IMG/VR virus record: IMGVR_UViG_3300033150_001590
Span: 1-45,780 of that record
Source: a virus
Reading direction: 5' to 3' (one strand)
Length of the DNA stretch: 45,780 nt
The notes beneath the pieces were generated by a model that made no database searches, was not told the origin of the DNA, and saw only the letters and a list, made by a program, of their open reading frames with translations. Position numbers and translations under genes: made by a program. Position 1 is the first letter of the stretch. Each line of letters starts with the position of its first letter. Below, piece by piece: positions 1 through 43,675 of the stretch.

Positions 1-802
1 ATGTGGTGCTGCCCAGAGTTGTAAACAAATATGTACTATCTTGCAAATCAATACTGGCTTGGAGTCCTATTCTTAATCTTGTTCCTCTTGGGCCCGCGAT
101 CGAACTAGCGCCTGCCGCGACATATGAACTAATATCTTGGATAGGGTATTCGGCCGAGGTCGTATATGCCACTGAATATGTGGCAATAGAATCATCATCT
201 ATAAAAGAAACATCAATGGCGGAATTATTTCCGTCTGTTAAGCTAATTAAGCGATTGTCCATTTGAATAGAATATTGCGTCTCAAATAAGTCTGATGGAA
301 GTCCCGATTCTGTGGGGGGTATCCTAGTAGTGTCCAAGCCTTGATCAGTTATGACTGCGATGCCTAAGGCCGTCTCTGCATTGTAAAAGTTTGATGAACC
401 GGCAACGGTGTCGAGTGAGTCATTGGTTGTTTTATCAACCGACACGGGAATTGTTCCGGCCAAACCGGTAATAGTGCTTAAACCCAACCCTCCAGCGGAG
501 TCAAAAAGTCTCAAAACGGGCAAATATAAAACGTTCGTTCTAGTAATTGTAATTAATTTCGATTTCATAGAGGAAGTATTGTTTGTAAACGCCTCCAAGA
601 TTGGAGTTTGTAAAATCTCCAAATCAAAAAATGCAGACCCCCTCGGATCGTCAAGGTTATAAAGAGCATAGTCGATTTCATCATCACCTAAAGCAAATTT
701 AGTAATCTTAAAGCTCCCATCACCTCTTGCCAATCGTTCTCTGCCGGCGTCTGTCAAAACGGCATCCAGTATGATGTCTCCGCTGTTATCTAAAAATGAC
801 AT
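1..802 (-). CDS. Virion structural protein, C-terminally cut by window edge
   Basis: I translated the minus strand from the ATG at 802-800 and the frame stays open for 267 codons to the window edge, so the C-terminus is missing. A ribosome site (AGAGGA) lies about 9 bases upstream. The N-terminus reads MSFLDNSGDIILDAVLTDAG, followed by a basic stretch and FALGDDEIDY. This pattern (LT..G...L..G.F....A..DD...Y) also occurs at the start of the 345-aa protein at 6688-7725. I know similar heads from uncharacterised structural proteins of marine T4-like phages. The rest is Thr/Ser/Asp-rich, consistent with a beta-rich tail or neck component. The plus-strand frames over this stretch are shadows. The structural role is inferred from position at the end of the tail-gene run; no specific function is recognised. 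Confidence 0.75.
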   Translation of the reverse strand, partial: MSFLDNSGDIILDAVLTDAGRERLARGDGSFKITKFALGDDEIDYALYNLDDPRGSAFFDLEILQTPILEAFTNNTSSMKSKLITITRTNVLYLPVLRLFDSAGGLGLSTITGLAGTIPVSVDKTTNDSLDTVAGSSNFYNAETALGIAVITDQGLDTTRIPPTESGLPSDLFETQYSIQMDNRLISLTDGNNSAIDVSFIDDDSIATYSVAYTTSAEYPIQDISSYVAAGASSIAGPRGTRLRIGLQASIDLQDSTYLFTTLGSTT

Positions 803-7725: not shown

Positions 7726-7730
7726 TTATT

Positions 7731-26047: not shown

Positions 26048-27562
26048 TTATTTTTTCTTCTTTTGTGTTAGCGGCCCGAATAATTCTATATGCTTTCCGA
26101 CAACGGCTGTCTTATAATTATCGAGATATTTTTGATTTTCGGTCACGATTGCTGTGATTTCGGCATCTGAAAATCTTTTTACTTTAGGATATTTGAAAGA
26201 AAGGGGATCAACATTGACTTTTTGACCTCCCTTTACAACCTGTACTCCAAAATGAAGATGGACACCGGTAGACCCACCGCTTCCAGGCCATGAACAGTAT
26301 AAACGGCCGGCCGGCGGATTGCGGTCTGGATTCGGAGTTGTATAACCCCAGTTCCCGCCGCCGACATATGCAATAACGTGTCCTGCTGGCACAGCGTCCC
26401 CAGACCTGAGTTGTACGGGCTTCCCATCTTTTATTTTTGTAGGGTGATTTCCCACCCTTACTATATGACAATAGCCAGTATATACTTTATAATCTTTATC
26501 TCCCGTGGGGTGATTCATCCCCATAGAGGCGCCGGCGGTTGTGGGGGCCCCAATTGGTTTTATTTCTGCAAACCCCTTAGAAGCATGATTTTTGTTCGGG
26601 ATCGCCTTATATCTTCTTTCCATCGCTCTTTTGGGGCTTGTTATGTATCGAATAGTGCCAGCGGCGGGAGCTACGATTGGCATTAACGCGGAGACCCAGC
26701 AATCTATCCCCGTATGGGGTCTAGTTGTTCCTGACCCCATAGGATCTTTTCTTCCTGGCTTAAGCGCAAACTTACTTCCGCAATGGATTTTTGAATTTTT
26801 TGTTGTGCCAGTTGCTAAAGGATTGAATTCCATCTGCCAATTTAATTCTTCGGTTATATGTTTGACCGCTGGAGCGGGTGGATCCACGCTTATGGGAAAT
26901 GAACTCAATTCTGAGGATTCATAAAACCCACCTGCCGGAACAACAAGAGCGCCATTCACAAAGACTGGCATTGCTCCTCCCCAATTTCCCGCAGGAGGGG
27001 TTGTTACGAAGTCTGCTGTTAGGCCGGTCTGGCCGACCACTTTATCAATTTTACACATATTTTTATCATCATTTGTATATGTTTGATATACCTCTGATCC
27101 CAACTTGATTATAGGACTTCCGCTTTCGCCCTTCTTTATGATAGCTTGCGGGTGTAAATAGGTCATTATTCGCCTCGTAAGATCTACACTTCCGCTATCA
27201 TAGTAATAAGGGGGATGACCGGCGCGTTCGGGGCCCTCGGCGCACCTAGTACTTATTGTCTTGTGATTCTGGCGTACCGTTGACAAATTTGTATTCTCGG
27301 TCTCGCCTATATTTAGTTGAAATGCTTCAAGGTAGGAGGGGAGGCGTTCATCGACGCATACAGAAAGCCTTACATCTGATTTTGTTTTTGTACTGCTTTC
27401 CCCGATCACCCTATCTATTATAGATGGAACTACGGTGCTGGCATTTGTTTGAATTGCAAAGGCGGCAGGAACAGCATCAATTGATCTTTTAAAAGAGTTA
27501 AATTCTCCCAATTGTTCTCTTAGATATAGTTCTTCTGCCAATTGCTCTTTGGTTTTAGGCAT
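26048..27562 (-). CDS. Virion-associated M23 (LytM-type) endopeptidase
   Basis: This 504-aa protein has a C-terminal half (about residues 255-460) that is a zinc metallopeptidase of family M23. It shows the HTGID motif (His and Asp zinc ligands, near 283-287), the later YCHI segment and HLHFGV near 434, which supplies the third His ligand and the catalytic His. M23 enzymes cut peptide cross-bridges of peptidoglycan. The N-terminal ~240 residues are not recognised and probably anchor the enzyme. There is no signal peptide, so it likely acts from the virion during penetration, as T4 gp5 lysozyme does, rather than by secretion. It lies next to the spike candidate and overlaps the 99-aa gene by 8 bases; a GAGGGGGGA ribosome site sits in that overlap. 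Confidence 0.88.
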   Translation of the reverse strand: MPKTKEQLAEELYLREQLGEFNSFKRSIDAVPAAFAIQTNASTVVPSIIDRVIGESSTKTKSDVRLSVCVDERLPSYLEAFQLNIGETENTNLSTVRQNHKTISTRCAEGPERAGHPPYYYDSGSVDLTRRIMTYLHPQAIIKKGESGSPIIKLGSEVYQTYTNDDKNMCKIDKVVGQTGLTADFVTTPPAGNWGGAMPVFVNGALVVPAGGFYESSELSSFPISVDPPAPAVKHITEELNWQMEFNPLATGTTKNSKIHCGSKFALKPGRKDPMGSGTTRPHTGIDCWVSALMPIVAPAAGTIRYITSPKRAMERRYKAIPNKNHASKGFAEIKPIGAPTTAGASMGMNHPTGDKDYKVYTGYCHIVRVGNHPTKIKDGKPVQLRSGDAVPAGHVIAYVGGGNWGYTTPNPDRNPPAGRLYCSWPGSGGSTGVHLHFGVQVVKGGQKVNVDPLSFKYPKVKRFSDAEITAIVTENQKYLDNYKTAVVGKHIELFGPLTQKKKK

Positions 27563-27854
27563 TTTTTAATCCCCCCTCTTCCTGCAATAAATCAAAGATA
27601 CCTTTCTTATCGTCTTCGGTTAGGCCAATTTTTTTCGATTCATCCTTTTGTAGAAGAGCAGAAATTTTGACCAATTGTTCGTTTGATCTTTGAAGGGTCT
27701 CGACATATTTAGCGGCAGTTAGTCCGACCTCTTTGTGTCTTTCTTCGCTTTTACTAAGATAAACCATAACATCATCAAGAAGACGACGAGTTATGTCTCT
27801 ATCGTTTCTAATGTTTTTGATAGCTTCTTCAATATATTTCTCTGTTTTTTTCAT
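27555..27854 (-). CDS. Small helical T4-like phage protein, unknown function
   Basis: This 99-aa protein is almost entirely alpha-helical and charged. It contains KYIEEAIKNIRNDRDITRRL near the start and the recognisable segment KYVETLQRSNEQLVKISALL in the middle. I recall this pattern from small conserved proteins of T4-like marine phages without assigned function. It lies between the gp55-like sigma factor and the virion lysin, overlapping the lysin start by 8 bases. It could be a coiled-coil adaptor, either a virion hub component or a partner of the transcription machinery. No further evidence is visible. Confidence 0.65.
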   Translation of the reverse strand: MKKTEKYIEEAIKNIRNDRDITRRLLDDVMVYLSKSEERHKEVGLTAAKYVETLQRSNEQLVKISALLQKDESKKIGLTEDDKKGIFDLLQEEGGLKNA

Positions 27855-27857
27855 ATT

Positions 27858-28589
27858 TCATTGATCTCCCCGATCCCATTTTGTCTTGAACGTTTTATAT
27901 TTTTTTCTCATCCTGTTCAAAGAGTTTACAATTTGTTTTGTGTTCAAGCCAGTAATCTCTCTCATGTACAAATAAATAGCTTTCTTATTAAAAATTTCTA
28001 TATCATCTGGTGAACTTAGTAAGATTTTTACAGCTTCAAGGACTTTTTTCTCATTTTCCTTTAATTTATCAGTATCCCACGTTTCTATTTCGGTCCAAAG
28101 ATGCTTCCAAAACTCATCTTTCTCCCTGTTCTCGTCATAATCGTTGGTGGTGGAAACGTGTTTTAACTCAAGCTCCCTCGAAAGCTCAGAAAGCTCAATT
28201 TCTCTTTGATTTTTCTTCTTATTTTTTTTAACTTGCTGTATGAACCAATTTTTTGTTATGACTGAAAAATATGAAAATGCCTTCGATCCCTTAGAAGGAT
28301 CAAATTTATTTAAAACAGTAATCAACCAAATTTTGCACTCGTCTCTTAATACCTCAATATTTGGTAAAATTGTAAATCTATATGTAAAAACAATCTTGTC
28401 AACTAATTGACTAAATACTGGCTGCAATAATTTGACATATAATTCTTCTCTTCTTTTGAATGTGGTCTCTGGAAGATTGTATTCATTAATTGCGTCTTCG
28501 TGGATTTGAGTGAAATAATTTTTTGAATTTTTACTTCTTCGTATTCTTCGGCGCTTCTTCTTAGGCGCGGGGTTCTGTAATGTCGTCAT
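27858..28589 (-). CDS. 55: gp55-like sigma factor for late transcription
   Basis: This 243-aa protein has a basic N-terminal tail (PKKKRRRIRRSK) followed by NYFTQIHEDAINEYN, the opening typical of T4 gp55-like factors. The central GSKAFSYFSVITKNWFIQQV matches the sigma region-2 core (KAFSYFS...K...I), which contacts the polymerase clamp and the -10 element. The C-terminal helical region contains YLYMREITGLNTKQIVNSL, a helix-turn-helix-like segment. T4 gp55 (185 aa) redirects host RNA polymerase to late promoters, with gp33 and the sliding clamp. The start is chosen for its GAGGA ribosome site about 9 bases upstream; it overlaps the preceding gene by 29 bases. It heads the structural run, consistent with a switch gene. 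Confidence 0.87.
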   Translation of the reverse strand: MTTLQNPAPKKKRRRIRRSKNSKNYFTQIHEDAINEYNLPETTFKRREELYVKLLQPVFSQLVDKIVFTYRFTILPNIEVLRDECKIWLITVLNKFDPSKGSKAFSYFSVITKNWFIQQVKKNKKKNQREIELSELSRELELKHVSTTNDYDENREKDEFWKHLWTEIETWDTDKLKENEKKVLEAVKILLSSPDDIEIFNKKAIYLYMREITGLNTKQIVNSLNRMRKKYKTFKTKWDRGDQ

Positions 28590-28896
28590 TAATAAATTCC
28601 TCTTCTGTTATATCGTCTTCCGTATATAAATTAGGCTCGTCAAACGCTTCGGTCAGGTCTTGCGCGTGTCGCAACAAGTGTCTCAATGTTTCATCCCCGT
28701 AAAACATTTCCAATTCATATACGGATTTAAGATGATTTGTAAAATTATGAACAACAGTCATAGTTTCTGTTAATTCATTATCATAATATTTTATTTGTTG
28801 TATAGATTTCCATCCATACCACAGCAGTAATCCATTTAGTAATACCGATAAAAGCAATAGTAAAAATAAAATTACTGCTATTAGTGCCCAATTCAT
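28561..28896 (-). CDS. Small membrane-anchored phage protein
   Basis: This 111-aa protein has one clear N-terminal transmembrane helix (about residues 4-26, WALIAVILFLLLLLSVLLNG). A mostly helical, acidic cytoplasmic domain follows and ends in Asp/Glu-rich repeats (EDDITEEEFINDDITE). The short N-terminus favours a type II or signal-anchor orientation. It overlaps the FmdB-like gene by 4 bases (ATGA) and the sigma factor gene by 29 bases, so these are translationally coupled. I do not recognise the family. It could be an inner-membrane anchor or an inhibitor of a host process; neither is shown by sequence. Confidence 0.7.
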   Translation of the reverse strand: MNWALIAVILFLLLLLSVLLNGLLLWYGWKSIQQIKYYDNELTETMTVVHNFTNHLKSVYELEMFYGDETLRHLLRHAQDLTEAFDEPNLYTEDDITEEEFINDDITEPRA

Positions 28897-29150
28897 GCTT
28901 TATATTCCTTCTCTTTTAACTTTTTCTTTTCTTCTACAACAGACTTTTTATTCTTTTCTATATATTCTTCAACTAAGGATCCAACTTTTCTGTCAGGTTT
29001 ATTGATCTTACTGATATAAGTTGGAATAGAAGGAATACGACGGAAAGTCTGGGAGTCACAAAAAGTGCAGTTCTCCAGACTTTCCGTCATAGAATGTCTT
29101 ATTTCGAAGTATTCATCACAATTTTTGCAATGATAATTATACCTCGGCAT
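28893..29150 (-). CDS. FmdB-family zinc-ribbon protein
   Basis: This 85-aa protein begins MPRYNYHCKNCDEYFEIRHS, the classic start of FmdB-type putative regulatory zinc ribbons. Four cysteines (C8, C11, C28, C31) form two CxxC knuckles for one zinc. A basic, Lys/Glu-rich helical tail follows. I choose the ATG at 29150 rather than the longer frame to 29267, because the zinc ribbon conventionally starts here and the extra residues merely antisense-shift through the overlapping 67-aa gene. The two genes overlap by 14 bases. Its role in phages is unknown; small zinc ribbons often bind nucleic acid or RNA polymerase, and its place beside the late sigma gene fits that idea without proving it. Confidence 0.8.
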   Translation of the reverse strand: MPRYNYHCKNCDEYFEIRHSMTESLENCTFCDSQTFRRIPSIPTYISKINKPDRKVGSLVEEYIEKNKKSVVEEKKKLKEKEYKA

Positions 29151-29340
29151 CTGTTTGTTCTTCTTCCTCTTTAGCCTCGCCAGTATCCAATTCAACAATG
29201 GGCGGATTTTCAACAATAAGCCCGTCATCTGTTTCTTTAAGAACAAATTTTTGAAAAACTGGAACAATGTCTGATTGATCCATTAAAGATTTTTGAAGAG
29301 CCATCATGACGGCTCCGATTGCTTGATTTGATAAGTGCAT
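29137..29340 (-). CDS. Small acidic T4-like phage protein, unknown function
   Basis: This 67-aa protein begins MHLSNQAIGAVMMALQKSLM and ends in a strongly acidic tail (EAKEEEEQTDAEV). The head resembles small conserved proteins of T4-like cyanophages and marine phages that have no assigned function. It is the first gene after the promoter at 29360-29388. An excellent AAGGAG ribosome site lies 7 bases before its ATG, so it should be well expressed. An acidic tail on a small helical protein could suit a regulator that binds polymerase, but that is speculation. Confidence 0.7.
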   Translation of the reverse strand: MHLSNQAIGAVMMALQKSLMDQSDIVPVFQKFVLKETDDGLIVENPPIVELDTGEAKEEEEQTDAEV

Positions 29341-29347
29341 ATCTATT

Positions 29348-29353
29348 CTCCTT
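29348..29353 (-). promoter_or_regulatory. Strong ribosome binding site, 67-aa gene
   Basis: On the minus strand, AAGGAG lies 7 bases before the ATG at 29340 and just downstream of the predicted transcription start. The resulting leader is very short. Confidence 0.75.
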
Positions 29354-29359
29354 GTATAT

Positions 29360-29388
29360 ATTATAACCCATTATTCCGAGATTGTCAA
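29360..29388 (-). promoter_or_regulatory. Consensus sigma70-type promoter
   Basis: Reading the minus strand, TTGACA (29388-29383) is followed after exactly 17 bases by TATAAT (29365-29360). Both hexamers match the bacterial housekeeping consensus perfectly. The predicted start site is near 29353, leaving a very short leader before the ATG at 29340. It would drive the 67-aa, FmdB, membrane, sigma and possibly downstream structural genes using unmodified host polymerase. Confidence 0.85.
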
Positions 29389-29395
29389 GGAATAA
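29371..29395. promoter_or_regulatory. Inverted repeat around the -35 box, operator candidate
   Basis: TTATTCC (29371-29377) and GGAATAA (29389-29395) are perfect 7-bp inverted arms separated by 11 bases. The -35 hexamer of the promoter lies inside the loop and touches one arm. This geometry suits a dimeric repressor that blocks polymerase. It has no T-run after it on the minus strand, so it does not look like a terminator. Confidence 0.5.
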
Positions 29396-29406
29396 AGTGA
29401 ATTATT

Positions 29407-29766
29407 TTAATCGCCCTTGGTTATTCGATAACTATCGCTATCAAAATGTTGTGTTGAAAATTCGAACAATTCTGTGTCTTCTAGGGCCAACATCTGGTGT
29501 CGTAGGCCTCTATAAACATGGAAATTATCTCCTTTTTCTAAAATTATTGATTCAGCGCTTTCGATGTCATCCCGATCGGAATAAAAAACGCGGAGTTTTC
29601 CAGACTGGACGTAGAAAACCTCATCTTTCAATTTATGATAATGCCAGGAGCATTTTTTTCCTTTGACAAAATATAATAATTTGCCACAATATTCCTCGCA
29701 ATTAACAATCCACTTTTCAAATCCCCAGCCTTTGGGGACAAATTTAATTGGTAAAGAATTCGACAT
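29407..29766 (-). CDS. Cupin-fold sugar-binding or isomerase-like protein
   Basis: This 119-aa single-domain cupin carries the metal-binding set: H42-x-H44-x4-E49 (WHYHKLKDEVF) and a later His near residue 91 (GLRHQM). The opening PKGWGFEKWIV resembles the C-terminal cupin of mannose-6-phosphate isomerase / GDP-mannose pyrophosphorylase fusions. It may isomerise or epimerise a sugar, or sense one. The start is the ATG at 29766, with an AAGGGG site 7 bases upstream; a GTG directly before it is less likely. It overlaps the HAD phosphatase by 23 bases and is the last gene of the glycan cluster. Confidence 0.75.
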   Translation of the reverse strand: MSNSLPIKFVPKGWGFEKWIVNCEEYCGKLLYFVKGKKCSWHYHKLKDEVFYVQSGKLRVFYSDRDDIESAESIILEKGDNFHVYRGLRHQMLALEDTELFEFSTQHFDSDSYRITKGD

Positions 29767-30076
29767 CACTCATCCCCTTGTCGTCTATATAGAAATCGCC
29801 GGACGGCTTTCCTAAAAACAATTCATGATATTTAACTCCCCAGGTCTTTAATTGTTTCAGGGTTAAATTATAGAACAAAGAATAAGCGGCTAACTGATCA
29901 TTGTTGCTTCGGCCCATACCCCTGGCGGTAAGCATTATTATAGTATGGCCCTCGTCGTATAATTTATTAATTTTTGCTATTCTATCTTGGTAAGGTCTGG
30001 CATCTCTATAATTTTGACCCTTGTTTTCACACAAGCTTTCACAAATTGTTCCATCGATATCAAACACATATGTCAT
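29744..30076 (-). CDS. HAD-family sugar-phosphate phosphatase
   Basis: This short (110 aa) HAD phosphatase has all core motifs: motif I D6-x-D8-G-T (FDIDGT), motif II Thr in LTARG, and motifs III/IV in GKPSGDFYIDDKG, with Lys and an Asp-Asp pair. It lacks a large cap, like the small phosphatases annotated in capsule biosynthesis. Its coding sequence overlaps the adenylyltransferase by 4 bases and the cupin by 23. The kinase-nucleotidyltransferase-phosphatase order suggests it removes the C7 phosphate of a heptose bisphosphate, the step GmhB performs elsewhere. It belongs to a different HAD branch from GmhB as judged by the DIDGT motif (GmhB has DRDGT), so the substrate is inferred. Confidence 0.8.
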   Translation of the reverse strand: MTYVFDIDGTICESLCENKGQNYRDARPYQDRIAKINKLYDEGHTIIMLTARGMGRSNNDQLAAYSLFYNLTLKQLKTWGVKYHELFLGKPSGDFYIDDKGMSDVEFFTN

Positions 30077-30462
30077 AATTTCTCCAATATTTCTGTAGTT
30101 GAATAACTACTGATTCTTTTAAAAAATTCTATTTCATCCACGAAACGAGATCCTACCACGTTTTTACCTCTGTACTCAGAACCAACAACGATAATCGATG
30201 CGTTACTTAATAATATTTGGTTTTCAAGCTCGCAATCAATATCAAAACTTTTCACTTCATCAATATATTTTATAGATTCTAGCATGGCTATTCTATCTTC
30301 CAGCGTGTTCACTGGGCGACGGGGGCCCTTGGAAGCGCTGACTCTTTCATCACCGTCCACTCCCACGATTAACCGGTCCCCTAGAGACTTCGCGTGTTTA
30401 AACAACTCAATGTGTCCGCGATGTAAAATATCAAAACATCCATTTGTCCATACAATTTTCAT
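30073..30462 (-). CDS. Heptose-1-phosphate adenylyltransferase-like (HldE C-domain type)
   Basis: This 129-aa protein has a cytidylyltransferase/Rossmann fold with the nucleotide-binding TNGCFDILHRGHIELF (HxGH at residues 14-17). The segment VGVDGDERVSASKGPRRPVN, then the RIAMLESIKYID region, is characteristic of the RfaE/HldE C-terminal domain. That enzyme transfers AMP (or, in relatives, CMP/GMP) to sugar 1-phosphates. Here it is a separate polypeptide, with the kinase as the adjacent gene, overlapping by 4 bases at each end (ATGA). The domain assignment is firm; whether the sugar is a heptose and the nucleotide ATP is an inference from the kinase partner. Confidence 0.85.
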   Translation of the reverse strand: MKIVWTNGCFDILHRGHIELFKHAKSLGDRLIVGVDGDERVSASKGPRRPVNTLEDRIAMLESIKYIDEVKSFDIDCELENQILLSNASIIVVGSEYRGKNVVGSRFVDEIEFFKRISSYSTTEILEKL

Positions 30463-31196
30463 GCTATGGAGACTCCCTTCTTTTGAACAACTAGGGTGGC
30501 ACAGTAATTAGCGTGCCTGATGGACTCTTGTATACTGTTGGTCTCAGTATATTTAGCGACCAAGGCGGCAATAAAAGTATCTCCGGCACCTGAAGTGTCT
30601 TTTATTTCAACCTTCGGCACAGAATAGACAATATCTTGATATTTCGCGCCATTTGGGCCCAAAGTGATTATCATTCGAGATATGGTATCCTCGTCAATTC
30701 GATGTTTAGTTCTCTCAAATTCAAATTCATTAATCTTTATAAAAGTAATGTTCTTGCACCAATCTCCTAAGATTTTTTTTGTATCTAAAAAAGTAATTTG
30801 ATGATTTTTAGATATATATTCAATATCTGACTCGGTAAGAAACCCTTTATTATAATCAGAGATTACTACAATATCATATTTTGAAAAGCTAATTTCTTCT
30901 AACTTGCAGCGGCCATAAGATTCGTCCTTTTCATCAACCCTCAAAACTATACAGTTTGTTCTATAATCAACATATCTTGTTTTAGTTATTTGTTTCCAAT
31001 TGCTATTAGTTATAAGTTCGGCGCTGGATTTGGATAAAGATTTGATATTATTAAGTACATTCATCGCCATCCCCCCGTTTGTCTTATTAATTTTATTGCT
31101 ATCAAATACAGGGACAGGGGCTTCTGGGCATAGGCGGGTGCAGTCTCCGTATTGATAGACGTCTCTACAACTTTCTCCTATAACTAGTATTTTCAT
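30459..31196 (-). CDS. PfkB-family sugar kinase (HldE N-domain type)
   Basis: This 245-aa protein is a ribokinase-fold kinase. It shows ILVIGESCRDVYQYG at the start, the substrate Gly-Gly motif NGGMAMNVLNN and the catalytic DTSGAGDTFIAAL motif near the C-terminus, where the last Asp is the base. The opening CPEAPVPVF is typical of heptose 7-phosphate kinases (HldE/RfaE N-domain). It is shorter than the usual ~310-330 aa, so some peripheral loops are missing. An AAGGAG site lies 5 bases before the ATG. It overlaps the adenylyltransferase downstream and the 3-dehydratase upstream by 4 bases each. It probably phosphorylates C1 of a heptose 7-phosphate. Confidence 0.83.
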   Translation of the reverse strand: MKILVIGESCRDVYQYGDCTRLCPEAPVPVFDSNKINKTNGGMAMNVLNNIKSLSKSSAELITNSNWKQITKTRYVDYRTNCIVLRVDEKDESYGRCKLEEISFSKYDIVVISDYNKGFLTESDIEYISKNHQITFLDTKKILGDWCKNITFIKINEFEFERTKHRIDEDTISRMIITLGPNGAKYQDIVYSVPKVEIKDTSGAGDTFIAALVAKYTETNSIQESIRHANYCATLVVQKKGVSIA

Positions 31197-32359
31197 AGCT
31201 CTCCTTTGACTACTTTGCAGATGTGGTCAATCTCGCTCTCGGTTAATTCTGGATAATTTGGAATAAAAAACCCGCAAGAGTGGATTCTATCGCTTAGTTC
31301 ATCCACAAACTCGTCATATTTGTCTGTCCAAAAAGGATGTCGACCCAAATTTCCAGCGCTATAAATTCTTGTTTCAATTCCCTCGTCAATGAGTCTTGTA
31401 ACAATTTCTCTTCTATGCTCAGTGCTGTTTGCCAAAGCGCCAAAAGAAATAGATACGGGTACATTTTCTCCCCAGTTCTGGAATTCAACATACCCTTTTA
31501 ACTTTTTAGCGTATAGAAGGTGATTCCTGTTCCTCTTATCTGCCACCAAATTTGCTTTCTTAATTTGTCTAATTCCCAAAAAAGCCTGTAAATCTGTAGA
31601 TCTAAGATTATATCCTGGCATAAAAAATGTGAATGGAGAATGGAAGTCTTCAATGCCGTGTTTTTCCATCATGTCATCGTAGGTCTCGCTGTCTAAATCC
31701 TTAGCCCAGCCATGACTGCGTAACATTAAAAGCATATCATAAAGATTTTTATCATTAACATTAACCATCCCCCCTTCAATTGTGGACAGTTGGTGGCCAA
31801 AATAAAATGAGAATGAGGCCATGTCCCCAATAGTACCTACCATACTTCCATCAGAGTATGAGGATCCTAGAGCGGCGCATGCATCTTCCAATAACAAAAA
31901 TCCATATTTTTCTTTTAATGCCAAGAGGCGCCTCTTGTGGTGTGGAACCCCAAGAACTTGAACAAAAATAACCGCATCTGGGCGCTCGTTTTCGCATATT
32001 TTCTCAAGCTGATCTAAATTAATCCCATAAGTATCTTTATCGGCGCCGCACATTATTGGCTTTAGGCCGAGTTGCATCGCTGGAGAAATTGTAGTTACCC
32101 AGCCAACAGACGGGACAACAATCTTCTTATTGGGGATCAATCCGCATTGAACTGCTGTTGCGATCATCAAAAGATTAGCTGATGAGCCAGAGTTATTGAA
32201 GACAGCGTATTTGGTTCCTATATACCGGGCCCAGTCGTTTTCGACTTTCCAAGTCAAATCGCCTTTGGTTAATCGCGGATATCCTTTAAGCCACTCACAG
32301 AGGGCATCTATATCTTCACTGTTAATCGTTTCTTTTGCTAGCGGGTATTTAATTTTCAT
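31193..32359 (-). CDS. PLP-dependent nucleotide-sugar 3-dehydratase (ColD-like)
   Basis: This 388-aa protein has the DegT/DnrJ aminotransferase fold. It shows VFNNSGSSANLL (cofactor phosphate loop), VPSVGWVTTISP, EDACAALGSS (Asp of EDA holding the PLP ring) and the lysine-motif region SFYFGHQLSTIEGG. At the position where aminotransferases have the Schiff-base Lys, this protein has His189. A His there marks the 3-dehydratases ColD (His188) and E1/AscC/DdhC, which remove the C3 hydroxyl of a 4-keto-6-deoxy sugar instead of adding an amine. It should yield a 3-deoxy sugar. The fold is certain; the ColD-type activity rests on this residue. An AGGA ribosome site precedes the ATG. Confidence 0.9.
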   Translation of the reverse strand: MKIKYPLAKETINSEDIDALCEWLKGYPRLTKGDLTWKVENDWARYIGTKYAVFNNSGSSANLLMIATAVQCGLIPNKKIVVPSVGWVTTISPAMQLGLKPIMCGADKDTYGINLDQLEKICENERPDAVIFVQVLGVPHHKRRLLALKEKYGFLLLEDACAALGSSYSDGSMVGTIGDMASFSFYFGHQLSTIEGGMVNVNDKNLYDMLLMLRSHGWAKDLDSETYDDMMEKHGIEDFHSPFTFFMPGYNLRSTDLQAFLGIRQIKKANLVADKRNRNHLLYAKKLKGYVEFQNWGENVPVSISFGALANSTEHRREIVTRLIDEGIETRIYSAGNLGRHPFWTDKYDEFVDELSDRIHSCGFFIPNYPELTESEIDHICKVVKGEL

Positions 32360-32369
32360 TTTATTTCCT

Positions 32370-32921
32370 TTATTTAATTGCTTGAAGGTTTAAGCTCATA
32401 AGCTTGCCATTTATTTTATCCATGTGGGGGAGATAAGCCTGACTATAATCATCTACATAAAAATGTTCTGTCTTTCGCCAGTCATATTGCTTTACTTCGC
32501 CAAAACCAACCTCCTCTAGTGCCTCCTTTAAAGTATTGAAAGACCATCCGTGATAATGAAAATCAAAATCATATTTTTGACCCCCATAAAATAAAGTTTT
32601 AACGCTATCGAAGTCGTTTGTCTCAAGGTAATATTCACAAGCGGCTTTTATATCTGGCACCGATAGTCGTAAAATTCCGCCTGGTTTCAAAGTCTTGTGC
32701 CAATTCGTCAAAACTTCCCTCCAAGTGATTGGTTGGAACAAAAACGCTTGTGTTGGAAAATGTTCCAACACATGACATGAATAAATTAGATCTACATCTT
32801 GGAATTTCTCATGAATCTTCGCAATGTTATATACAACATCGGGGTCCATGTCGTTTCTGGCATCAATATTAATGAACCCGTGCAGTTTTCGGTCTCCGCA
32901 TCCTAAATTTAGTTTTGTCAT
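32370..32921 (-). CDS. SAM-dependent methyltransferase, class I
   Basis: This 183-aa protein has a Rossmann methyltransferase core. Motif I is LNLGCGDRKLHGFINID, an acidic residue ends strand 2, HVLEHFP is the post-II motif, and LKPGGILRLSVPD is motif III. The variant family is common in polysaccharide clusters as sugar or lipid methyltransferases. A GGAG ribosome site lies about 9 bases upstream of the ATG. It lies between the 3-dehydratase and the RmlC-like epimerase, so O- or C-methylation of the nucleotide sugar or of the finished glycan is the likely job. The acceptor cannot be told from sequence. Confidence 0.85.
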   Translation of the reverse strand: MTKLNLGCGDRKLHGFINIDARNDMDPDVVYNIAKIHEKFQDVDLIYSCHVLEHFPTQAFLFQPITWREVLTNWHKTLKPGGILRLSVPDIKAACEYYLETNDFDSVKTLFYGGQKYDFDFHYHGWSFNTLKEALEEVGFGEVKQYDWRKTEHFYVDDYSQAYLPHMDKINGKLMSLNLQAIK

Positions 32922-32937
32922 TAAAATATCTCCAATT

Positions 32938-33450
32938 TTAAATTAATTTAGCGTTCTTATCTCTATCAGATAAGTGCGGTTTATTCTCTATTAAATCCCA
33001 GTCTATTGCCAAACTTGGGCTATTCCAATTTACAGAAATTTGTTGATCTGCCGGTACATATCCAGAAGACCACTTATAGTAAAAATAAGTATTATTCTCT
33101 AAATTATAGTGCCCATTTAAAAAATATTTAGGTACAAAAACTGCAAAGTCGCTCTGCTCATCCATATCAAAATATGATTTTTGCAAAAATTGCTCATGAT
33201 TTTTATTATAATTAACTACAACGAGCTTAAATCTTCCCCTAATACAATAGATTAATTTATCATTCACCGTGTCGGTGTGTAGTCCTCTTAGAACATTTTT
33301 TTTAGATATTGTTAGTTTATCTAATAAATATTTTTTCCCACTGGGATGATAATCAAGTAAATTTATTATTTGGCCCCTATCATCAAAATATTTTTCTAAA
33401 TAAACCTTACAAACCCCTTCTAATTTAGTTTTTTCAATATTAAAATTCAT
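32938..33450 (-). CDS. RmlC-like nucleotide-sugar 3,5-epimerase
   Basis: This 170-aa protein is close to RmlC (~180 aa). The cupin core shows NVLRGLHTDTVNDKLIYCIR, which corresponds to the RGLHxQ segment holding the catalytic His, and a later FVPKYFLNGHY. The C-terminus YKWSSGYVPADQQISVNW matches the family's closing Y..P..E..I.W pattern. The Gln after RGLH is changed to Asp and the paired Tyr is not obvious, so it could epimerise at one carbon only or have a different substrate. The start is the ATG at 33450, with AGAGG 6 bases upstream. A TTG at 33465 would overlap the previous stop and is less likely. Confidence 0.8.
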   Translation of the reverse strand: MNFNIEKTKLEGVCKVYLEKYFDDRGQIINLLDYHPSGKKYLLDKLTISKKNVLRGLHTDTVNDKLIYCIRGRFKLVVVNYNKNHEQFLQKSYFDMDEQSDFAVFVPKYFLNGHYNLENNTYFYYKWSSGYVPADQQISVNWNSPSLAIDWDLIENKPHLSDRDKNAKLI

Positions 33451-33458
33451 TTTTACCT

Positions 33459-34175
33459 CTAACAATATTTTGGATCCTTTGACGTAAACAATTCACGGCG
33501 TAGATCTAAAAAAATTTTTAAACAGGCATCAAATCCTTTTTTATCTTCCTCTGTTGGTTTCCAAAAGGAATTAAAAAGAGAATATCTAATTTTTGTAACC
33601 TCAATCGTCTCCTCTCCCTTAAACCACAAATAATAAGATAAATAATTATCTGCAAAATGCGGAGATCTAATATTGAAATTTGGATGAAAGATCTTACCCC
33701 CCAATAACTCTAAAGTCTTTTTATTTAAAATAGGAAACCTGCACATCAATATTCTTGGTAAAGATTTTGTCTCTGGTTTTGGTCCGTATGGGTGGTTTAA
33801 CGGAATTGGCTCAAGATAGCAGCGGCCGTCGATGGCTGCTGTGAATATCTTATATTTTCTATTAATAAATAAATCACTTGCTAGAATTTCGGGCGCCCGG
33901 ATGATTTCTGGGGTCACCAGATTATCATCAGTAAGGACCACTAAGGTGTCTCCTTTGGATTTCGTGGCACCATAATTGAAAGCTTGCGGGCCATTAATAC
34001 ACATATTATCTTTTATAAATCTGATTCGTTTATCGTTAATTTCATCTGGAGAAATGACTAGAATTTCTCCGTTATCAAGCGCTCCGGCGGACTCCAGACA
34101 ATCTATGACTCTTTTAGGTGATTCTTCATAATTTCTATTTGTGGCAATCAAATAAGATATGTCTATATTTTTCAT
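33459..34175 (-). CDS. Glycosyltransferase, GT-A fold (family 2-like)
   Basis: This 238-aa protein opens DISYLIATNRNYEESPKRVI, followed by a Rossmann-type strand series. The metal/nucleotide motif VVLTDDNLV sits near residue 82, where family-2 transferases carry DxD. The C-terminal half has LGGKIF and a WFKGEE segment similar in layout to the two longer paralogues at 36576 and 39171. It presumably adds one sugar to the growing glycan at the cytoplasmic face of the membrane or in the cytosol. There is no transmembrane helix. A GAGG ribosome site lies about 7 bases from the ATG. Confidence 0.75.
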   Translation of the reverse strand: MKNIDISYLIATNRNYEESPKRVIDCLESAGALDNGEILVISPDEINDKRIRFIKDNMCINGPQAFNYGATKSKGDTLVVLTDDNLVTPEIIRAPEILASDLFINRKYKIFTAAIDGRCYLEPIPLNHPYGPKPETKSLPRILMCRFPILNKKTLELLGGKIFHPNFNIRSPHFADNYLSYYLWFKGEETIEVTKIRYSLFNSFWKPTEEDKKGFDACLKIFLDLRRELFTSKDPKYC

Positions 34176-34201
34176 TTTTGTTTCCTCATTTCAAATTAAG
34201 C

Positions 34202-34453
34202 TTAATCTACACAACAATTTTCCACTATTTTTTCCACACTATCTAGATCTTCAAGGGGCAGTTTCATATTTGAATTTGTAGATAACGGCCTTAAACGGAT
34301 ACCGGATCTTTCTATATTTATCAATAAATCAAACATTTCAATACTCTCCAACAAGCCAGAAGAATAGAGAGCGTCTTTAGATTCTACCTTTCCCTTATTG
34401 TTCTGTTCTAAAAAAATATTAACAATAGCTAACACCCTTTCCATTATAGGCAT
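34202..34453 (-). CDS. Acyl carrier protein-like protein
   Basis: This 83-aa protein is the usual ACP size. LYSSGLLESIEMFDLLINIE corresponds to the ACP helix-2 region, in which the consensus Asp-Ser-Leu is Glu-Ser-Ile. Ser37 would carry 4'-phosphopantetheine. The neighbour upstream is an acyl-AMP ligase that overlaps it by 10 bases; together they make an activate-and-load pair. The start ATG follows an AAGGA site; a second ATG three codons later is possible. The Asp-to-Glu change and the absence of a typical DSLD block make the assignment slightly less than certain, but size, position and context agree. Confidence 0.75.
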   Translation of the reverse strand: MPIMERVLAIVNIFLEQNNKGKVESKDALYSSGLLESIEMFDLLINIERSGIRLRPLSTNSNMKLPLEDLDSVEKIVENCCVD

Positions 34454-36579
34454 AATTTTTTCCTTGTCAACGAACGACTAATTTTTCCACTAGATGTTTT
34501 AATTAGAAACCCCTCCCCTAGAAGATGAATCGTGGCGGATAAATTAAAAATATCTTTTATTTTTTTAATTATCATATTTATTGTTTCTTTTTTTCCCTCA
34601 TTCGTGCCCGTGTACTCTGCGCAGATGTGAACTTCTGAGGTGCCTTTTATTCGATTCGGTACCCCAAAGCAAGCCACCCTTCCGGGTTTAATATTATTAA
34701 TTTTAGCGGTCTCGCGCTCTATAGGAGATGGATATATATTAATTCCAAAAGAAACGAAAGAATCTTTTTGGCGATCCACAATATATAGATGACCGCCTTG
34801 CATAAATCCGATATCGCCAGTATTATAATAATCATAATAACTTTCTTCATCTCGGTTTGTTTTTGGGCAGCTAGAAGATTTGACATACACCATTCCAATT
34901 TTTTCATTGGTAACATCTTTGTTTTCACTCACAATTAAAACCGAAACGCCAGGAATAATTTTGCCACAACTTGTATATTTTTTCCCATGATAAATTTCTT
35001 CTCTTATTCCCTCCGATTGGGAAACGGCAAACACATTTTCCGCCAAGGCATAGCACACTGATAACGCGTTTCTAGATAATCCAAACTGTTTAAATTTATT
35101 ATAAAAATTATTTAAATCTTCATAATAAGCTGGTTCAGAACAGCTTATAAATTTTTTAACGGTGGATAAATCATAGATTTTATCTCCAACATTGATCCTG
35201 CTGGTCATATAATTAAATGCAAAATTGGGCATCCAAATGTGGGTAGCTGCGTGGGATTCTATAAGAGCCATGAAAATTTCCGGATCTCTGAGCCATACAA
35301 AGGGGTCAATAATGTGAAACTTAGCGTCGGACAGCAAAGGCAACAGGAATCCAGCCACAAGACCCATATCGTGATAAAGTGGAAGCCAAGATACTACAGA
35401 GCTATTCTTGTTTAAATCAATAGTTTTCTTATATTCCTCGCAATTCTCAAGTATTTCTCGGTGAGTAACATATAAAATTTTTGGAGTACCAGTAGTACCC
35501 GAAGACATCTGGATGAATGCTACACTATCAGAATCCGCAGTCGGAGGTGACGATATATCGGGGGAAACATCCAGGTTACTACGCGTATTAAAATATTTTT
35601 TATAAATTGATGTATGCTGTTCCTCCGATAAACACAAAGAAGGCGCCAGTTGTTGTTTTACATATCTCATTTTTTTATCAAATTCATCAAAATGAATTTT
35701 ATTAGAAGGATATTGTAAAATTATAGGCTTTCGACCATATAAAATGCTGCCAATGAATTCGGAAAATAGATCCTCACCGCTCGGCTTGGTTAAGACTACC
35801 ACATCTCCCTCGCTAGTAAGATTACTAATTCTAGCACCAACGCGAGCCGCCTTATCAAAAAAATCTCTATTATTAGAATTATGTTTCAAAATATTGGGGA
35901 TTGTTTTACCTAGTCTCCCCATATATCGATTCAAATAATTTGCTATGAATTCAACCCCCTTGTTATTATAATGAATACCATCACCAGTTGGATACCCATG
36001 CTCTCGAACCCAGTCCACATCCATTGACATATTTAAAAAATCAACACCAACTGATGAAAAAGATTTATTCATCTTTAAAACATCGTAATGATGTTTGGTA
36101 CCTTCCTGATATTCTTTATCTAAATCATTTTTGTTTTTCAAAGTATGCATTCCCACAAATAAAACGCGCTTTGACTTTTTTTTAAATGTTTCAAAAACTT
36201 CTTTTTGGCCTTCGGGGTCTGAGTACAAATAAACTTTTTGATTTGTATTGGGCTTGTCCCGTTCGTCAATTAAACATTCTTCTTTAAAATGTTTTGCGGT
36301 TATCCCTCTGAATACATTTTCTGGCCAATAACAGACGCCTTCGTGCCATCCGGCTTGTATAATTATCAGATCATACCACTTGTCTGGTACACTTTTTATA
36401 TGTTCTTCTAATATAAAAATAGAAAATAGCCAATGGTTGTACTCTGCGCGAACGGTGTGTATCTCGTGGACGTTGTTGGTTATTGAAACAAATTTTTGTA
36501 CCCAATCGAGACCCAGGCACTGACCGCTGTGTTGTTTTGGCCATATGGCGCGCGAATCGGCGCCGATCAGAATTTTCAT
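34444..36579 (-). CDS. SGNH hydrolase fused to fatty-acyl-AMP ligase
   Basis: This 711-aa protein has two domains in order. Residues 1-~225 form an SGNH/GDSL hydrolase: block I is GADSR (Ser9), an IIQAGWHE stretch occupies the block-III place, and block V is DGIHYNNKG (Asp198-His201). Residues ~235-711 form an adenylate-forming enzyme: the phosphate loop MSSGTTGTPK near 355, YYNTGDIGF near 583, DRQKDSFVSFG, and a C-terminal SSGKISRSL whose Lys completes catalysis. The set resembles fatty-acyl-AMP ligases more than CoA ligases. The partner is the ACP next door. The fusion suggests one protein that both installs and trims or transfers acyl groups. It overlaps the glycosyltransferase upstream by 4 bases. 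Confidence 0.85.
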   Translation of the reverse strand: MKILIGADSRAIWPKQHSGQCLGLDWVQKFVSITNNVHEIHTVRAEYNHWLFSIFILEEHIKSVPDKWYDLIIIQAGWHEGVCYWPENVFRGITAKHFKEECLIDERDKPNTNQKVYLYSDPEGQKEVFETFKKKSKRVLFVGMHTLKNKNDLDKEYQEGTKHHYDVLKMNKSFSSVGVDFLNMSMDVDWVREHGYPTGDGIHYNNKGVEFIANYLNRYMGRLGKTIPNILKHNSNNRDFFDKAARVGARISNLTSEGDVVVLTKPSGEDLFSEFIGSILYGRKPIILQYPSNKIHFDEFDKKMRYVKQQLAPSLCLSEEQHTSIYKKYFNTRSNLDVSPDISSPPTADSDSVAFIQMSSGTTGTPKILYVTHREILENCEEYKKTIDLNKNSSVVSWLPLYHDMGLVAGFLLPLLSDAKFHIIDPFVWLRDPEIFMALIESHAATHIWMPNFAFNYMTSRINVGDKIYDLSTVKKFISCSEPAYYEDLNNFYNKFKQFGLSRNALSVCYALAENVFAVSQSEGIREEIYHGKKYTSCGKIIPGVSVLIVSENKDVTNEKIGMVYVKSSSCPKTNRDEESYYDYYNTGDIGFMQGGHLYIVDRQKDSFVSFGINIYPSPIERETAKINNIKPGRVACFGVPNRIKGTSEVHICAEYTGTNEGKKETINMIIKKIKDIFNLSATIHLLGEGFLIKTSSGKISRSLTRKKLCL

Positions 36580-37379
36580 TTTCCCACCGTTTTGTTGAAT
36601 CGTCTAGTCCAAATAGCTGGTGCGCTTTTCCAATTATCTATTTTAATCTTTGGTGTAATATTTGTTGTCCACAAAGGATCGCGATATTTCTGTTGCAGGA
36701 GAGGTTCGTCATGCTGGTGTTGACAAGCGAAGATAGGCGCATGATCTCCACTATCGGCCGGCATATGATCACACTCAAAAAGGGGGATTTGAGCCATTTT
36801 AACAATTGCGCCGCTGTATTGGGCTCGAATGGCCATATCTGCGTGCGATGCCCAAGTTCCTTCGTAGCTGCAATCCCAGCCGCCCAGAGAATTAAAATAG
36901 TCTGCGTACATAAACGCTATATTAAATAACCACCACTCTTTTGGAAGGTGAGGTGATTTAGCTGGAGTGTTACATAATTTGAAATAAGGGTCTGGCTGTA
37001 GATTTTTTCTTTCTTCGCTCCCTTGTTGCCCTTCATAATATTTTGCCACTAAAACATTATTATTCGATGGGCCCATATTATAAAATTCTTCCATACATTG
37101 ATCCAGAGAATTCTCAAAAAACAAACAATCATCTGCGAGCCATGTATACACTTTACCCTCACAAAGAGAGGCTGCGATATTTGATGCTCTCACCGGTGAG
37201 CCATAATCTTTGATATATTTAATATTTTTTAAGTCCTTTAACGCGTCTGGAAGAGGACTTGGTCCACAAATTATTAATTCAAAAGTCCGATTTGTAGAAT
37301 TGAGGATAGTTTGATATAGTTTTTCGAGCCTTTCTGGTCGTATGCTTGGCAAAATGAGGGAAATTTCTGGCTTTTTCAT
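36576..37379 (-). CDS. Glycosyltransferase, GT-A fold
   Basis: This 267-aa protein opens PEISLILPSIRPERLEKLYQ. It has FIKDYG-type and KVYTWLADDCLFF motifs, the latter carrying the DD pair of the nucleotide-sugar site near residue 83. Further on come LGGWDCSYEG and a C-terminal WKSAPAIWTRRFNKTVG. Several of these segments also occur, in the same order, in the 276-aa protein at 39171, so the two are paralogues. It is a probable glycosyltransferase with an unknown donor. There is no signal or membrane segment. It overlaps the neighbours by 4 bases at both ends, arguing for coupled translation. Confidence 0.8.
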   Translation of the reverse strand: MKKPEISLILPSIRPERLEKLYQTILNSTNRTFELIICGPSPLPDALKDLKNIKYIKDYGSPVRASNIAASLCEGKVYTWLADDCLFFENSLDQCMEEFYNMGPSNNNVLVAKYYEGQQGSEERKNLQPDPYFKLCNTPAKSPHLPKEWWLFNIAFMYADYFNSLGGWDCSYEGTWASHADMAIRAQYSGAIVKMAQIPLFECDHMPADSGDHAPIFACQHQHDEPLLQQKYRDPLWTTNITPKIKIDNWKSAPAIWTRRFNKTVGK

Positions 37380-38389
37380 TGTTTCCTCTCCATATATTCA
37401 ATCACTTCTAGGATAGACTCTTCCAAGTTTATCTCCGCCTCAAAACCTAGTAGTTTTGTAGCCTTCGTCGTGTCAGGTATTCTCTTTTGGACGTCATATT
37501 TGTATGACGCGTCTGAAACTGTTATGAATTCCAAATTTGGATTCAGAATTTTCCATACGAATCTCGATAATTCAAGTACAGATGTAGCAACAGATGTAGA
37601 AATATTAAAATCTTCATTCTCGGCTTGTGAACTTTCTAGTGCCATTCTTATGCCTCTGGCAATATCTTTTCCGTTAGTATAACACCTAATCTGATCTCCA
37701 GTTCCCAGAATATGAAGAGGATTTTGACCTTTAAGAATTTTGTTAATAATGTCTGGCAATACATGACTCATCATCAATTTTATATTTCCCGATTGGACTT
37801 TGTGTTCCCCTATCGCGTCTTCTTCTCCGACGCCGACACAGTTAAACGGGCGTATAATTGTGTAAGGAAGTCCATATTGTTCATAAGCTCCTTTGCAAAA
37901 ATATTCAGTAGCTAACTTTTGGAATCCATAGGTACTCAGAGGGGGACTGCATGTTGTAATTTCACTTTCCGGTGTGGGGTGTACTTTGGTATTTTCGAAA
38001 ACCATACTGCTAGACAGGACAAGAATTCTTTTGAGGATCTTTTTTTGGTGTAATTTGATCCCCAAATCAAAAGTTGAAGCTAAAATTCGCTCGTTTGTTG
38101 CTAACAAATCATAAGCATATTTATGAAAATAAGTAATTCCCCCGATCATTGCAGCGCCGGCGACTATATATTCAACATTGTTCAATAAAGGAGGGATATT
38201 ATCTGAATCTATATCTATTATGTCCATTTCAATTAAATTAAAATTAGGATGCTGGTCGTGAGGGCGAGTGATGGGACCATATTTAGAAAAATTGTCTATT
38301 CCCACTACTTGATATCCTCTATTTAAAAATTCAGCGCACAAATATGATCCAATGAATCCCTGGCTTCCAGTAATCAAAATTTTACTCAT
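37376..38389 (-). CDS. Extended SDR nucleotide-sugar epimerase/reductase
   Basis: This 337-aa protein has ILITGSQGFIGSYLCAEFLN, the Gly-rich NAD(P) loop (GxxGxxG), and a later LVLSSSMVFE, then TYGFQKLATEYF, the catalytic YxxxK. This is the extended short-chain dehydrogenase family that includes GDP-fucose synthase, UDP-glucose 4-epimerase and dTDP-glucose dehydratases. The IRPFNCVG and IRCYTNGKDIARG segments resemble epimerase/dehydratase members. It is likely to act on the same 4-keto intermediate as the RmlC-like epimerase. The exact step is not determined. It overlaps both neighbours by 4 bases. Confidence 0.85.
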   Translation of the reverse strand: MSKILITGSQGFIGSYLCAEFLNRGYQVVGIDNFSKYGPITRPHDQHPNFNLIEMDIIDIDSDNIPPLLNNVEYIVAGAAMIGGITYFHKYAYDLLATNERILASTFDLGIKLHQKKILKRILVLSSSMVFENTKVHPTPESEITTCSPPLSTYGFQKLATEYFCKGAYEQYGLPYTIIRPFNCVGVGEEDAIGEHKVQSGNIKLMMSHVLPDIINKILKGQNPLHILGTGDQIRCYTNGKDIARGIRMALESSQAENEDFNISTSVATSVLELSRFVWKILNPNLEFITVSDASYKYDVQKRIPDTTKATKLLGFEAEINLEESILEVIEYMERKQ

Positions 38390-39174
38390 TTTCTCATTCC
38401 CTCAAAAACAGTAGTTCGATATTTGTTGTTTTCATCTAACAGATTCTCAAAAAAGTCTACACCTGTTTTCTGCATCATCTTTGCCATGGCAGAAACGTCT
38501 TTTGGCAAACACATCCCCCCGAATCCTCTAAAGTGATCATTACATTCTAAATAATTCCCATGAATATGTTTTCTCTTAACTACGGCATTTTTTACATTAG
38601 TATAATTAACATTTTGTAATTTACACGCTTCGTAAAAACTATTAGCGAAGATAATTAACATTGCATTGTAGACGTTGTTAAAATATTTACAAAACTCTGC
38701 TTCCGAGGGGGTTAATCTAACAAATTCATCTGGGTATGAGCCATGACAATCTTTAAGTATTTTGAATGTTGTATCATCCATACACCCCAAAATACAAACA
38801 TCATGATTTTCAGTAAAATCTGTAATTGCGCAGCGTTCTCTTAAAAATTCTGGCACAAAACAAATGTTTAATTCTGTCTCTGTTCTTAATCGTTCTGTTG
38901 TGCCCGGGACTACTGTAGATTTAATCGCTACAATTCCAGAATAGCTTAAGTTTTGAAGATTGTGAACAACTTGTTCCACAATAGAAAGGTCGCACGAGCC
39001 GTCCTCACCTCGGGGAGTCGGAACACAGATATAGACTACGTCAGTTCCCAAAACATTTTCTATCTTGGTATCCAACACTATATCGTGAATTGCGACATCA
39101 TGACCCAACAATTCAAAACCAAACTTACAGGCGCCGCCAACGACTCCCGATGATCCTATAACTCCAATTTTCAT
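38386..39174 (-). CDS. Shortened UDP-sugar 6-dehydrogenase-like protein
   Basis: This 262-aa protein resembles UDP-glucose/GDP-mannose dehydrogenases. The N-terminal NAD loop is IGVIGSSGVVGG. The middle contains FVPEFLRERCAITDF and FCKYFNNVYNAMLIIFANSF (Lys/Asn of the active centre). The signature FGGMCLPKD holds the catalytic Cys222. The family usually has ~400-450 residues with a separate C-terminal UDP-binding domain. Here the protein stops about 40 residues after the Cys, so that domain is missing. The frame is closed by a normal stop overlapping the next gene's start. It may be a shortened but active oxidase, a different nucleotide-sugar dehydrogenase, or a remnant. Confidence 0.75.
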   Translation of the reverse strand: MKIGVIGSSGVVGGACKFGFELLGHDVAIHDIVLDTKIENVLGTDVVYICVPTPRGEDGSCDLSIVEQVVHNLQNLSYSGIVAIKSTVVPGTTERLRTETELNICFVPEFLRERCAITDFTENHDVCILGCMDDTTFKILKDCHGSYPDEFVRLTPSEAEFCKYFNNVYNAMLIIFANSFYEACKLQNVNYTNVKNAVVKRKHIHGNYLECNDHFRGFGGMCLPKDVSAMAKMMQKTGVDFFENLLDENNKYRTTVFEGMRK

Positions 39175-40001
39175 TTGTATCCAAGCTCCTTATAGCTCTG
39201 CGGGAGTTTTCCATCTTTAAATTTAAATCTTCTTTTCCAAATTGGAGAAGATTGCTGCCAGTTATTGATATCTAAACGGATTCGGGTTTTTGCGCCTGAC
39301 GCTTGCATATATATTTCATCAAATTTGGGCTTATCCGAAAATGTCTGAGCATCATAAATTGGCCCATGATCCTTGGTCTTATTTACATAGTGATTACAAG
39401 TTGTCGCGTCTGTTTCCGAGTCGAATAGGTGCCCTCCATCAGCCTGTACTCTAAACATAAGATCGTGTAAAGGGTGGTTAATATATTCAAATTGGCAATC
39501 CCATCCGCCAAGCTCCTTAAAATAATCCGTCACCATGAAATGGTGAAGAGAAATTTTATATTCCCTGGGGATACCAAGAAGTTTTAACTCATGATGAAAA
39601 TGTGCTGTCCAAAATCCCATCGGCAGCGTCTGGCCAGAATATAATGCCCCTTCTCGGTAGCGCATATTAATTACGTCCTTTTTTGAACAATTTGCGCGAT
39701 GGAAGTTTACTGCGTTATCAATAGCATCTGGTAGGAAAATGGCATCATCCACGCAATGATACATGTACTCGCCCTCGCATTGCAAAGCTCCAATTTGGGC
39801 TGCTCGGGTAGGGGCGCCATAATCTTTTATCAATTTTACATTACTAAAATGAACCATTTCGGGGGGTAGATCGAAAGGGCTAACCAAGACCAGTTCCCAT
39901 GAATAATTTTTACAAGCATTAAATAAGCTTCCATACATCATTAACCACTGGTGGCTTCTGATTGCCGGCATCAAAATTGAAACATCGTATTTAGATGTCA
40001 T
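39171..40001 (-). CDS. Glycosyltransferase, GT-A fold, paralogue of 36576 gene
   Basis: This 276-aa protein opens KYDVSILMPAIRSHQWLMMY. It has LIKDYGAPTRAAQI, then CVDDAIFLPD with the DD pair. LGGWDCQFE and the closing WQQSSPIWKRRFK follow, all aligning with the 267-aa protein. Compared with the paralogue, the acceptor region between these anchors differs, so it probably uses another acceptor. It overlaps the dehydrogenase-like gene by 4 bases and the GT-B gene by 11. It likely adds sugars to the same glycan. Confidence 0.8.
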   Translation of the reverse strand: MTSKYDVSILMPAIRSHQWLMMYGSLFNACKNYSWELVLVSPFDLPPEMVHFSNVKLIKDYGAPTRAAQIGALQCEGEYMYHCVDDAIFLPDAIDNAVNFHRANCSKKDVINMRYREGALYSGQTLPMGFWTAHFHHELKLLGIPREYKISLHHFMVTDYFKELGGWDCQFEYINHPLHDLMFRVQADGGHLFDSETDATTCNHYVNKTKDHGPIYDAQTFSDKPKFDEIYMQASGAKTRIRLDINNWQQSSPIWKRRFKFKDGKLPQSYKELGYK

Positions 40002-42090: not shown

Positions 42091-42111
42091 CTAATTCTCG
42101 TTCTTATATAT

Positions 42112-42140: not shown

Positions 42141-42157
42141 GTATTATTTTGATTTTT

Positions 42158-43666: not shown

Positions 43667-43675
43667 TTTTTACTC

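Follow-up and report, generated by a model that had tools for sequence, protein, structure and literature searches.

A conserved sigma70-type promoter predicted ahead of the late-sigma gene block of an uncultured T4-like marine myovirus

The late-sigma gene block and its upstream gap

The window, the whole stretch of 45,780 nucleotides analyzed here (IMG/VR virus record IMGVR_UViG_3300033150_001590, positions 1-45,780), represents an incomplete genome whose long ORFs are encoded on the minus strand, most of them touching or overlapping. It holds baseplate-wedge-like genes and, directly upstream of the block described below, a large sugar-biosynthesis cassette (29407-44647, minus strand) comprising cupin, HAD-like, cytidylyltransferase, PfkB kinase, DegT aminotransferase, dTDP-sugar isomerase, AMP-ligase, epimerase and radical SAM/B12 genes. 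When ORFs of 60 aa and more are counted, the coding (minus) strand leaves just three intergenic gaps of at least 30 nt, each containing a promoter-like site: (i) 42091-42157, with TTGACA-17-TATATT; (ii) 29341-29406 (66 nt), with an exact TTGACA-17-TATAAT promoter before the gene of P67; and (iii) 803-886, with ACTATTTA. No Rfam families were found in the window. The block downstream of the second gap and the elements within and around this gap are the following:

27555-27854, minus strand: conserved 99-aa ORF (o99) after the sigma gene, recognized by synteny in relatives
27858-28589, minus strand: late-sigma-like protein of 243 aa, distant gp55 type (PHROG 234, E 1.3e-7)
28561-28896, minus strand: small protein whose translation shows a single hydrophobic segment, at the N-terminus (TM protein), syntenic in most relatives
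28893-29150, minus strand: FmdB-like zinc-ribbon protein starting MPRYNYHC... (PF09723, E 3e-9; PHROG 1076)
29137-29340, minus strand: P67, a 67-aa conserved phage protein and first gene of the block (alignment; 363 IMG/VR relatives)
29341-29353, minus strand: predicted leader AAGGAGAATAGAT with Shine-Dalgarno AAGGAG, its start placed by spacing
29360-29365, minus strand: -10 hexamer TATAAT, preceded by GT (GGGTTATAAT), identical in nine relatives
29371-29395, no strand assigned: 7-bp inverted repeat TTATTCC-11-GGAATAA, arms at 29371-29377 and 29389-29395 (plus strand), with the -35 box in the 11-nt loop
29383-29388, minus strand: -35 hexamer TTGACA, preceded by C, identical in nine relatives
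29389-29410, minus strand: conserved A/T-rich UP-like element TTAAAATAATTCACTTTATTCC, which includes the left arm of the repeat

The gene order P67-FmdB/zinc-ribbon-TM protein-late sigma-o99 is kept in nearly all of 80 relatives compared, whereas the genes directly upstream of the block differ in most of them. P67 itself carries the conserved stretch LSxQAxGAVMMALQKSLMEQSDIVPV, and its gene stands just before the FmdB, TM and sigma genes in many IMG/VR phage contigs. Its AlphaFold model displays a helix-helix-hairpin (pLDDT 74); no match was found in INPHARED, no PHROG was assigned to the window protein, and no consistent PHROG emerged across the alignment.

The product of 27858-28589 is likely a late sigma factor, though distant from gp55. 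In the sigma alignment, 45 of the 49 members match PHROG 234 'late sigma transcription factor', a similarity of the gp55 type; Pfam Sigma70_r2 is detected in only four of them (best value 0.017), and a PDB sequence search with the protein found nothing. The AlphaFold model (pLDDT 83) retrieves mostly sigma factors as top PDB matches, all of them weak and none with E below 0.001, the best local match being the SigE N-terminal domain (8b3z; 69 columns, TMt 0.75; likewise not below that E value). The PHROG matches, together with the conserved gene order, bear out the view of a preliminary description of this DNA that the promoter is placed to transcribe the late-sigma block.

On the minus strand, the region reads TTAAAATAATTCACTTTATTCC-TTGACA-ATCTCGGAATAATGGGT-TATAAT-ATATACAAGGAGAATAGAT-ATG, with a transcript start predicted at about 29353 from the spacing to the -10 hexamer. 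Both hexamers, at 29388-29360, match the sigma70 consensus at 12 of 12 positions with a 17-nt spacer, inside the 16-18 nt range; this promoter reading assumes that the host sigma prefers the bacterial sigma70 consensus. The sequence and coordinates had been described correctly, as had the rarity of such a site: in dinucleotide shuffles, the two strands of the window together are expected to hold 0.09 exact TTGACA-15..19-TATAAT sites, and two were found. The second, TTGACA-16-TATAAT at 34443-34470 (minus strand), lies where two ORFs overlap, across the stop codon of the first and the start codon of the second; it has no preceding C, its predicted start falls downstream of the ATG of the next gene, and as a promoter it is probably a chance match.

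Conservation of the promoter and the inverted repeat

P67 relatives were confirmed 363 times in IMG/VR, and the best 80 of the 363 were fetched for comparison. A 12/12 promoter is found within 150 nt upstream of P67 in nine of these 80, where shuffles predict 0.1; all nine have a 17-nt spacer and share an upstream block ACTTTWWTMC. An 11/12 site precedes P67 in three relatives (L021, L045 and L046). The exact promoter is absent in 71 of the 80, and it is thus not essential to the layout of the sigma block; weaker promoters or read-through may serve the relatives that lack it.

Comparison of the window with eight of the nine relatives discloses a promoter conserved as a unit while the surrounding DNA diverges. 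The two hexamers agree in every pair (identity 1.0); pairwise identity is 0.77-0.88 over the 24 nt before the -35 box, 0.47-0.68 in the spacer and 0.25-0.30, the background level, more than 30 nt upstream of the -35 box. This profile is what selection on a promoter and its upstream element looks like in sequence comparison. Chance matches to the consensus do occur in AT-rich gaps, that at 34470-34443 probably being one, but a coincidence without promoter function is highly improbable at P67: all 12 positions are kept in nine relatives despite the diverged spacer and upstream DNA, so the promoter is almost certainly real, and the exact sites of the relatives show a strict strand bias.

The preliminary description had also noted the arms TTATTCC/GGAATAA around the -35 box, which are present as described, and had proposed a dimeric repressor that keeps the promoter off until needed. 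In favor of such an operator, bound over the -35 box by a phage or host repressor, the arms are exact and located where many repressors act. In addition, the window and its six closest relatives share the right-arm GAATA, which lies in the spacer, despite differences in the bases that immediately precede it, and 5-7 of the 7 arm positions are complementary in these seven promoters. Even so, the proposal is improbable and did not hold up in the comparison of the ten orthologous promoters. Arm pairing is perfect only in the window and L007, falls to 6/7 in L003 and L004 and to 5/7 in L005, L006 and L008, and reaches 4/7 in L010 and 3/7 in L009 and L014, the last three, which have the least similar spacers, keeping an intact promoter without the repeat. 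In addition, a T/A difference in the left arm (L004-L006 and L008) is matched by no compensating change in the right arm, so that the dyad is neither conserved nor co-varying. The absence of conservation in relatives, which the earlier description had named as evidence against its own proposal, is therefore largely what is seen, perfect arms occurring in two of ten promoters, while the GAATA half persists in the seven closest.

The frequency of such repeats argues in the same direction. Some 7-bp repeat with a loop of 3-20 arises in 10% of shuffles of the 66-nt gap with the hexamers fixed, and in 15% under a first-order model, that is, at chance level per gap; the window totals 158 repeats of this kind, and the zero expectation for the exact arm string covers only that 7-mer pair, picked after the fact. 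A search for TTATTCC-11-GGAATAA, which had been suggested, returned a single copy in the 45.8-kb window of this incomplete genome, and the arms are missing both from the promoter at 42140-42112 and from promoters of the same class at other loci of the relatives. The left arm is conserved jointly with flanking bases outside the repeat, as part of the upstream element, and since it lies inside this longer conserved block the dyad is unnecessary to explain it. Most likely, the repeat results incidentally from a left half that is conserved and a spacer rich in A/T; an imperfect operator specific to a lineage or subclade, which the GAATA kept in the seven closest promoters would allow, is about as improbable as the general one. 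The RNA fold of the gap (z -1.5) was set aside as irrelevant, the repeat lying upstream of the predicted start.

The upstream block raises a different possibility, namely a regulated promoter of the middle type, rather than a factor-free early one, at which a phage activator or co-factor binds the conserved ACTTTAWTCC box (about -46 to -37). The block is more conserved than the spacer, and its CTTTA resembles in letters the core of the T4 MotA box (TGCTTtA). This reading is nevertheless unlikely, though a shade less so than a repressor: a perfect -35 box should need no help, the T4 Mot box lies at -30 in promoters without a good -35 (PMC1524935) whereas the block here is upstream of an intact one, and other promoters of the class have different A/T-rich sequences at that place. 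The sequence data are very probably explained by a strong, conserved sigma70-type promoter that serves the late-sigma block and that host RNA polymerase reads independently of additional factors.

A class of sigma70 promoters and a candidate late promoter motif

Exact sigma70 sites with spacers of 16-18 nt number 36 in the contigs of the nine relatives, all on the coding strand, with none on the opposite strand and none in a reversed-pattern control; 21 further relatives also have exact sites, mostly on the coding strand. Together with the window, the class comprises 38 sites, some of which lie inside ORFs and may be chance. They share (i) C before TTGACA (32/38), (ii) A after it (31/38), (iii) G at -14 (32/38), (iv) a 17-nt spacer (28/38), and (v) an A+T content of 79% at -59 to -38 against a background of 60%, as in a UP-element tract. 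In a spacing control, a pattern with spacer 14 gave 64 stretches, compared with at least 120 with spacer 17. A looser pattern, A/T-rich DNA plus CTTGACA and TTATA, is common in viral contigs generally, among the matches listed, and the upstream element is therefore not specific to this lineage. The other two gaps of the window hold the following sites:

42112-42140, minus strand: further member of this promoter class, TTGACA-17-TATATT preceded by AAAATAATAC; its gap lies ahead of the TPP-enzyme/sugar cassette, and the TTATTCC/GGAATAA arms are missing
843-850, minus strand: ACTATTTA as a late-promoter candidate, within the third gap; the ORF that starts at 802 follows 40 nt downstream

The first of these leads TPP-enzyme, glycosyltransferase and nucleotide-sugar genes. 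In addition to that of P67, at least two promoters of the class recur across several relatives, one before an ORF of 253-257 aa (MPHISFSELKNWNFCP...), which by eye looks like a RecB-type nuclease, and the other before an ORF of 82-98 aa. In the 193-kb relative G007, a GroEL-type chaperonin gene (PF00118; L326:13246-14784) lies behind an exact sigma70 promoter. In G013 (L344), positions 1938-11562 hold six exact sigma70 promoters in about 10 kb, two of them with near-identical spacers (TTGACACCCGACACCCTTCMGGTTATAAT), and this is likely an early region.

A strand-specific word count in intergenic DNA pointed to a second motif, CTATTTA. Intergenic forward/reverse counts of ACTATTTA are 17/1 in G007, 14/0 in G013 and 10/1 in G024, with shuffle means of at most 0.4. 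CTATTTA lies mostly 14-50 nt before a start codon and never in the same gap as an exact sigma70 site, and the genes that follow ACTATTTA encode tail sheath (in two phages), tail tube, baseplate wedge and other proteins. The motif, written ACTATTTA(T), stands in the window at 843-850 (minus strand) and in L319-L328 and L344-L361. In 30 relatives, ACTATTTAT occurs 197 times on the coding strand and four times on the other, as the sum of a table that takes in coding DNA, where codon use adds bias, against about 40 per strand for the reversed control. GG and T-rich positions upstream of ACTATTTA look like the terminator tails of preceding genes and were left out of the motif. On the other hand, the T4 late promoter sequence TATAAATA shows no forward excess, with five and five occurrences by strand in the window and intergenic forward/reverse counts of 4/9, 0/4 and 0/5. 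Judged by titles, nothing obviously relevant was found in the literature on ACTATTTA or CTATTTA as a phage late promoter. ACTATTTA is the best candidate for the late promoter read by the sigma of this lineage.

Relation to known systems and proposed transcription programme

T4-like phages combine sigma70-type early promoters, which carry an A-rich UP-like tract, with late promoters near TATAAATA (PMC1524935, PMC2988020). The promoters described here resemble the early promoters of T4, RB69, RB49, 44RR and Aeh1 in that they look like host sigma70-type promoters independent of phage factors and have an A-rich UP-like tract immediately before the -35 box (PMC1524935), and in being numerous per genome and oriented with the genes (36 in nine relatives, 0 opposite). 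They differ in that the T4-type early promoters center on a GTTTAC-like -35 box, whereas the exact (C)TTGACA is here paired with exact TATAAT; because this -35 box is nearer the bacterial consensus, the P67 promoter is assigned to the sigma70 consensus promoters rather than to the early promoters of T4 sequence. Its TTGACA-17-TATAAT with A/T-rich DNA at -59 to -38 is also like a bacterial sigma70 promoter with UP element (Estrem et al., cited in PMC1524935). The UP element of P67 is putative, recognized by composition and conservation. Its distal half resembles the UP consensus, whereas the proximal half (CTTTATTCC) does not.

The likeness to the T4 gp55/late promoter system is that the block encodes a distant gp55-type sigma and that a short motif precedes structural genes with no exact sigma70 site in the same gap; the difference lies in the motif, a candidate ACTATTTA(T) in place of TATAAATA. 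In Aeromonas phage Aeh1, (a/g)C is reported to replace TA at -13/-12 of the late promoter (PMC2988020), and this variant has the AC start in common with ACTATTTA. The closest isolates by sigma and a gp6-like protein are Microcystis phage Mel-JY01 and Flavobacterium phage immuto, whose sigma-like proteins show about 29% identity and whose downstream baseplate genes keep the same order; neither P67 (profile search) nor an exact sigma70 promoter was found in the 45-48 kb covered in these two.

According to the mechanism proposed for this uncultured T4-like marine myovirus, host RNA polymerase would read the P67 promoter without phage factors. This promoter combines C-TTGACA with GT-TATAAT at a spacing of 17 nt between the hexamers, and an A/T-rich UP-like element precedes them at about -59 to -38. 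The mRNA would begin about 13 nt before P67 and continue through the FmdB-like zinc-ribbon, membrane-protein and late sigma genes, so that the host holoenzyme would make the phage sigma early in infection, and this sigma would then steer the polymerase to late promoters, the candidate for these being the ACTATTTA motif ahead of structural genes. The sequence, its conservation, the strand bias, the synteny and the promoter classes are observed; we infer the activity of the P67 promoter, its timing, the use of the UP element and the pairing of sigma with motif, the early timing being read from the promoter type. It is somewhat more likely than not that the lineage has a transcription programme of two classes, with exact sigma70 promoters driving synthesis of a divergent gp55-type sigma, and this sigma in turn recognizing ACTATTTA(T), a late promoter of novel sequence that lacks a -35 box.

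The P67 promoter is ordinary in kind, and more novelty attaches to the ACTATTTA motif. The promoter illustrates how the late sigma gene is probably transcribed in an uncultured lineage of marine phages, and it lies at the boundary that separates the variable sugar-biosynthesis cassette from the conserved core of sigma and structural genes. The second motif, before structural genes, makes the early/late switch testable by matching the sigma to the motif.
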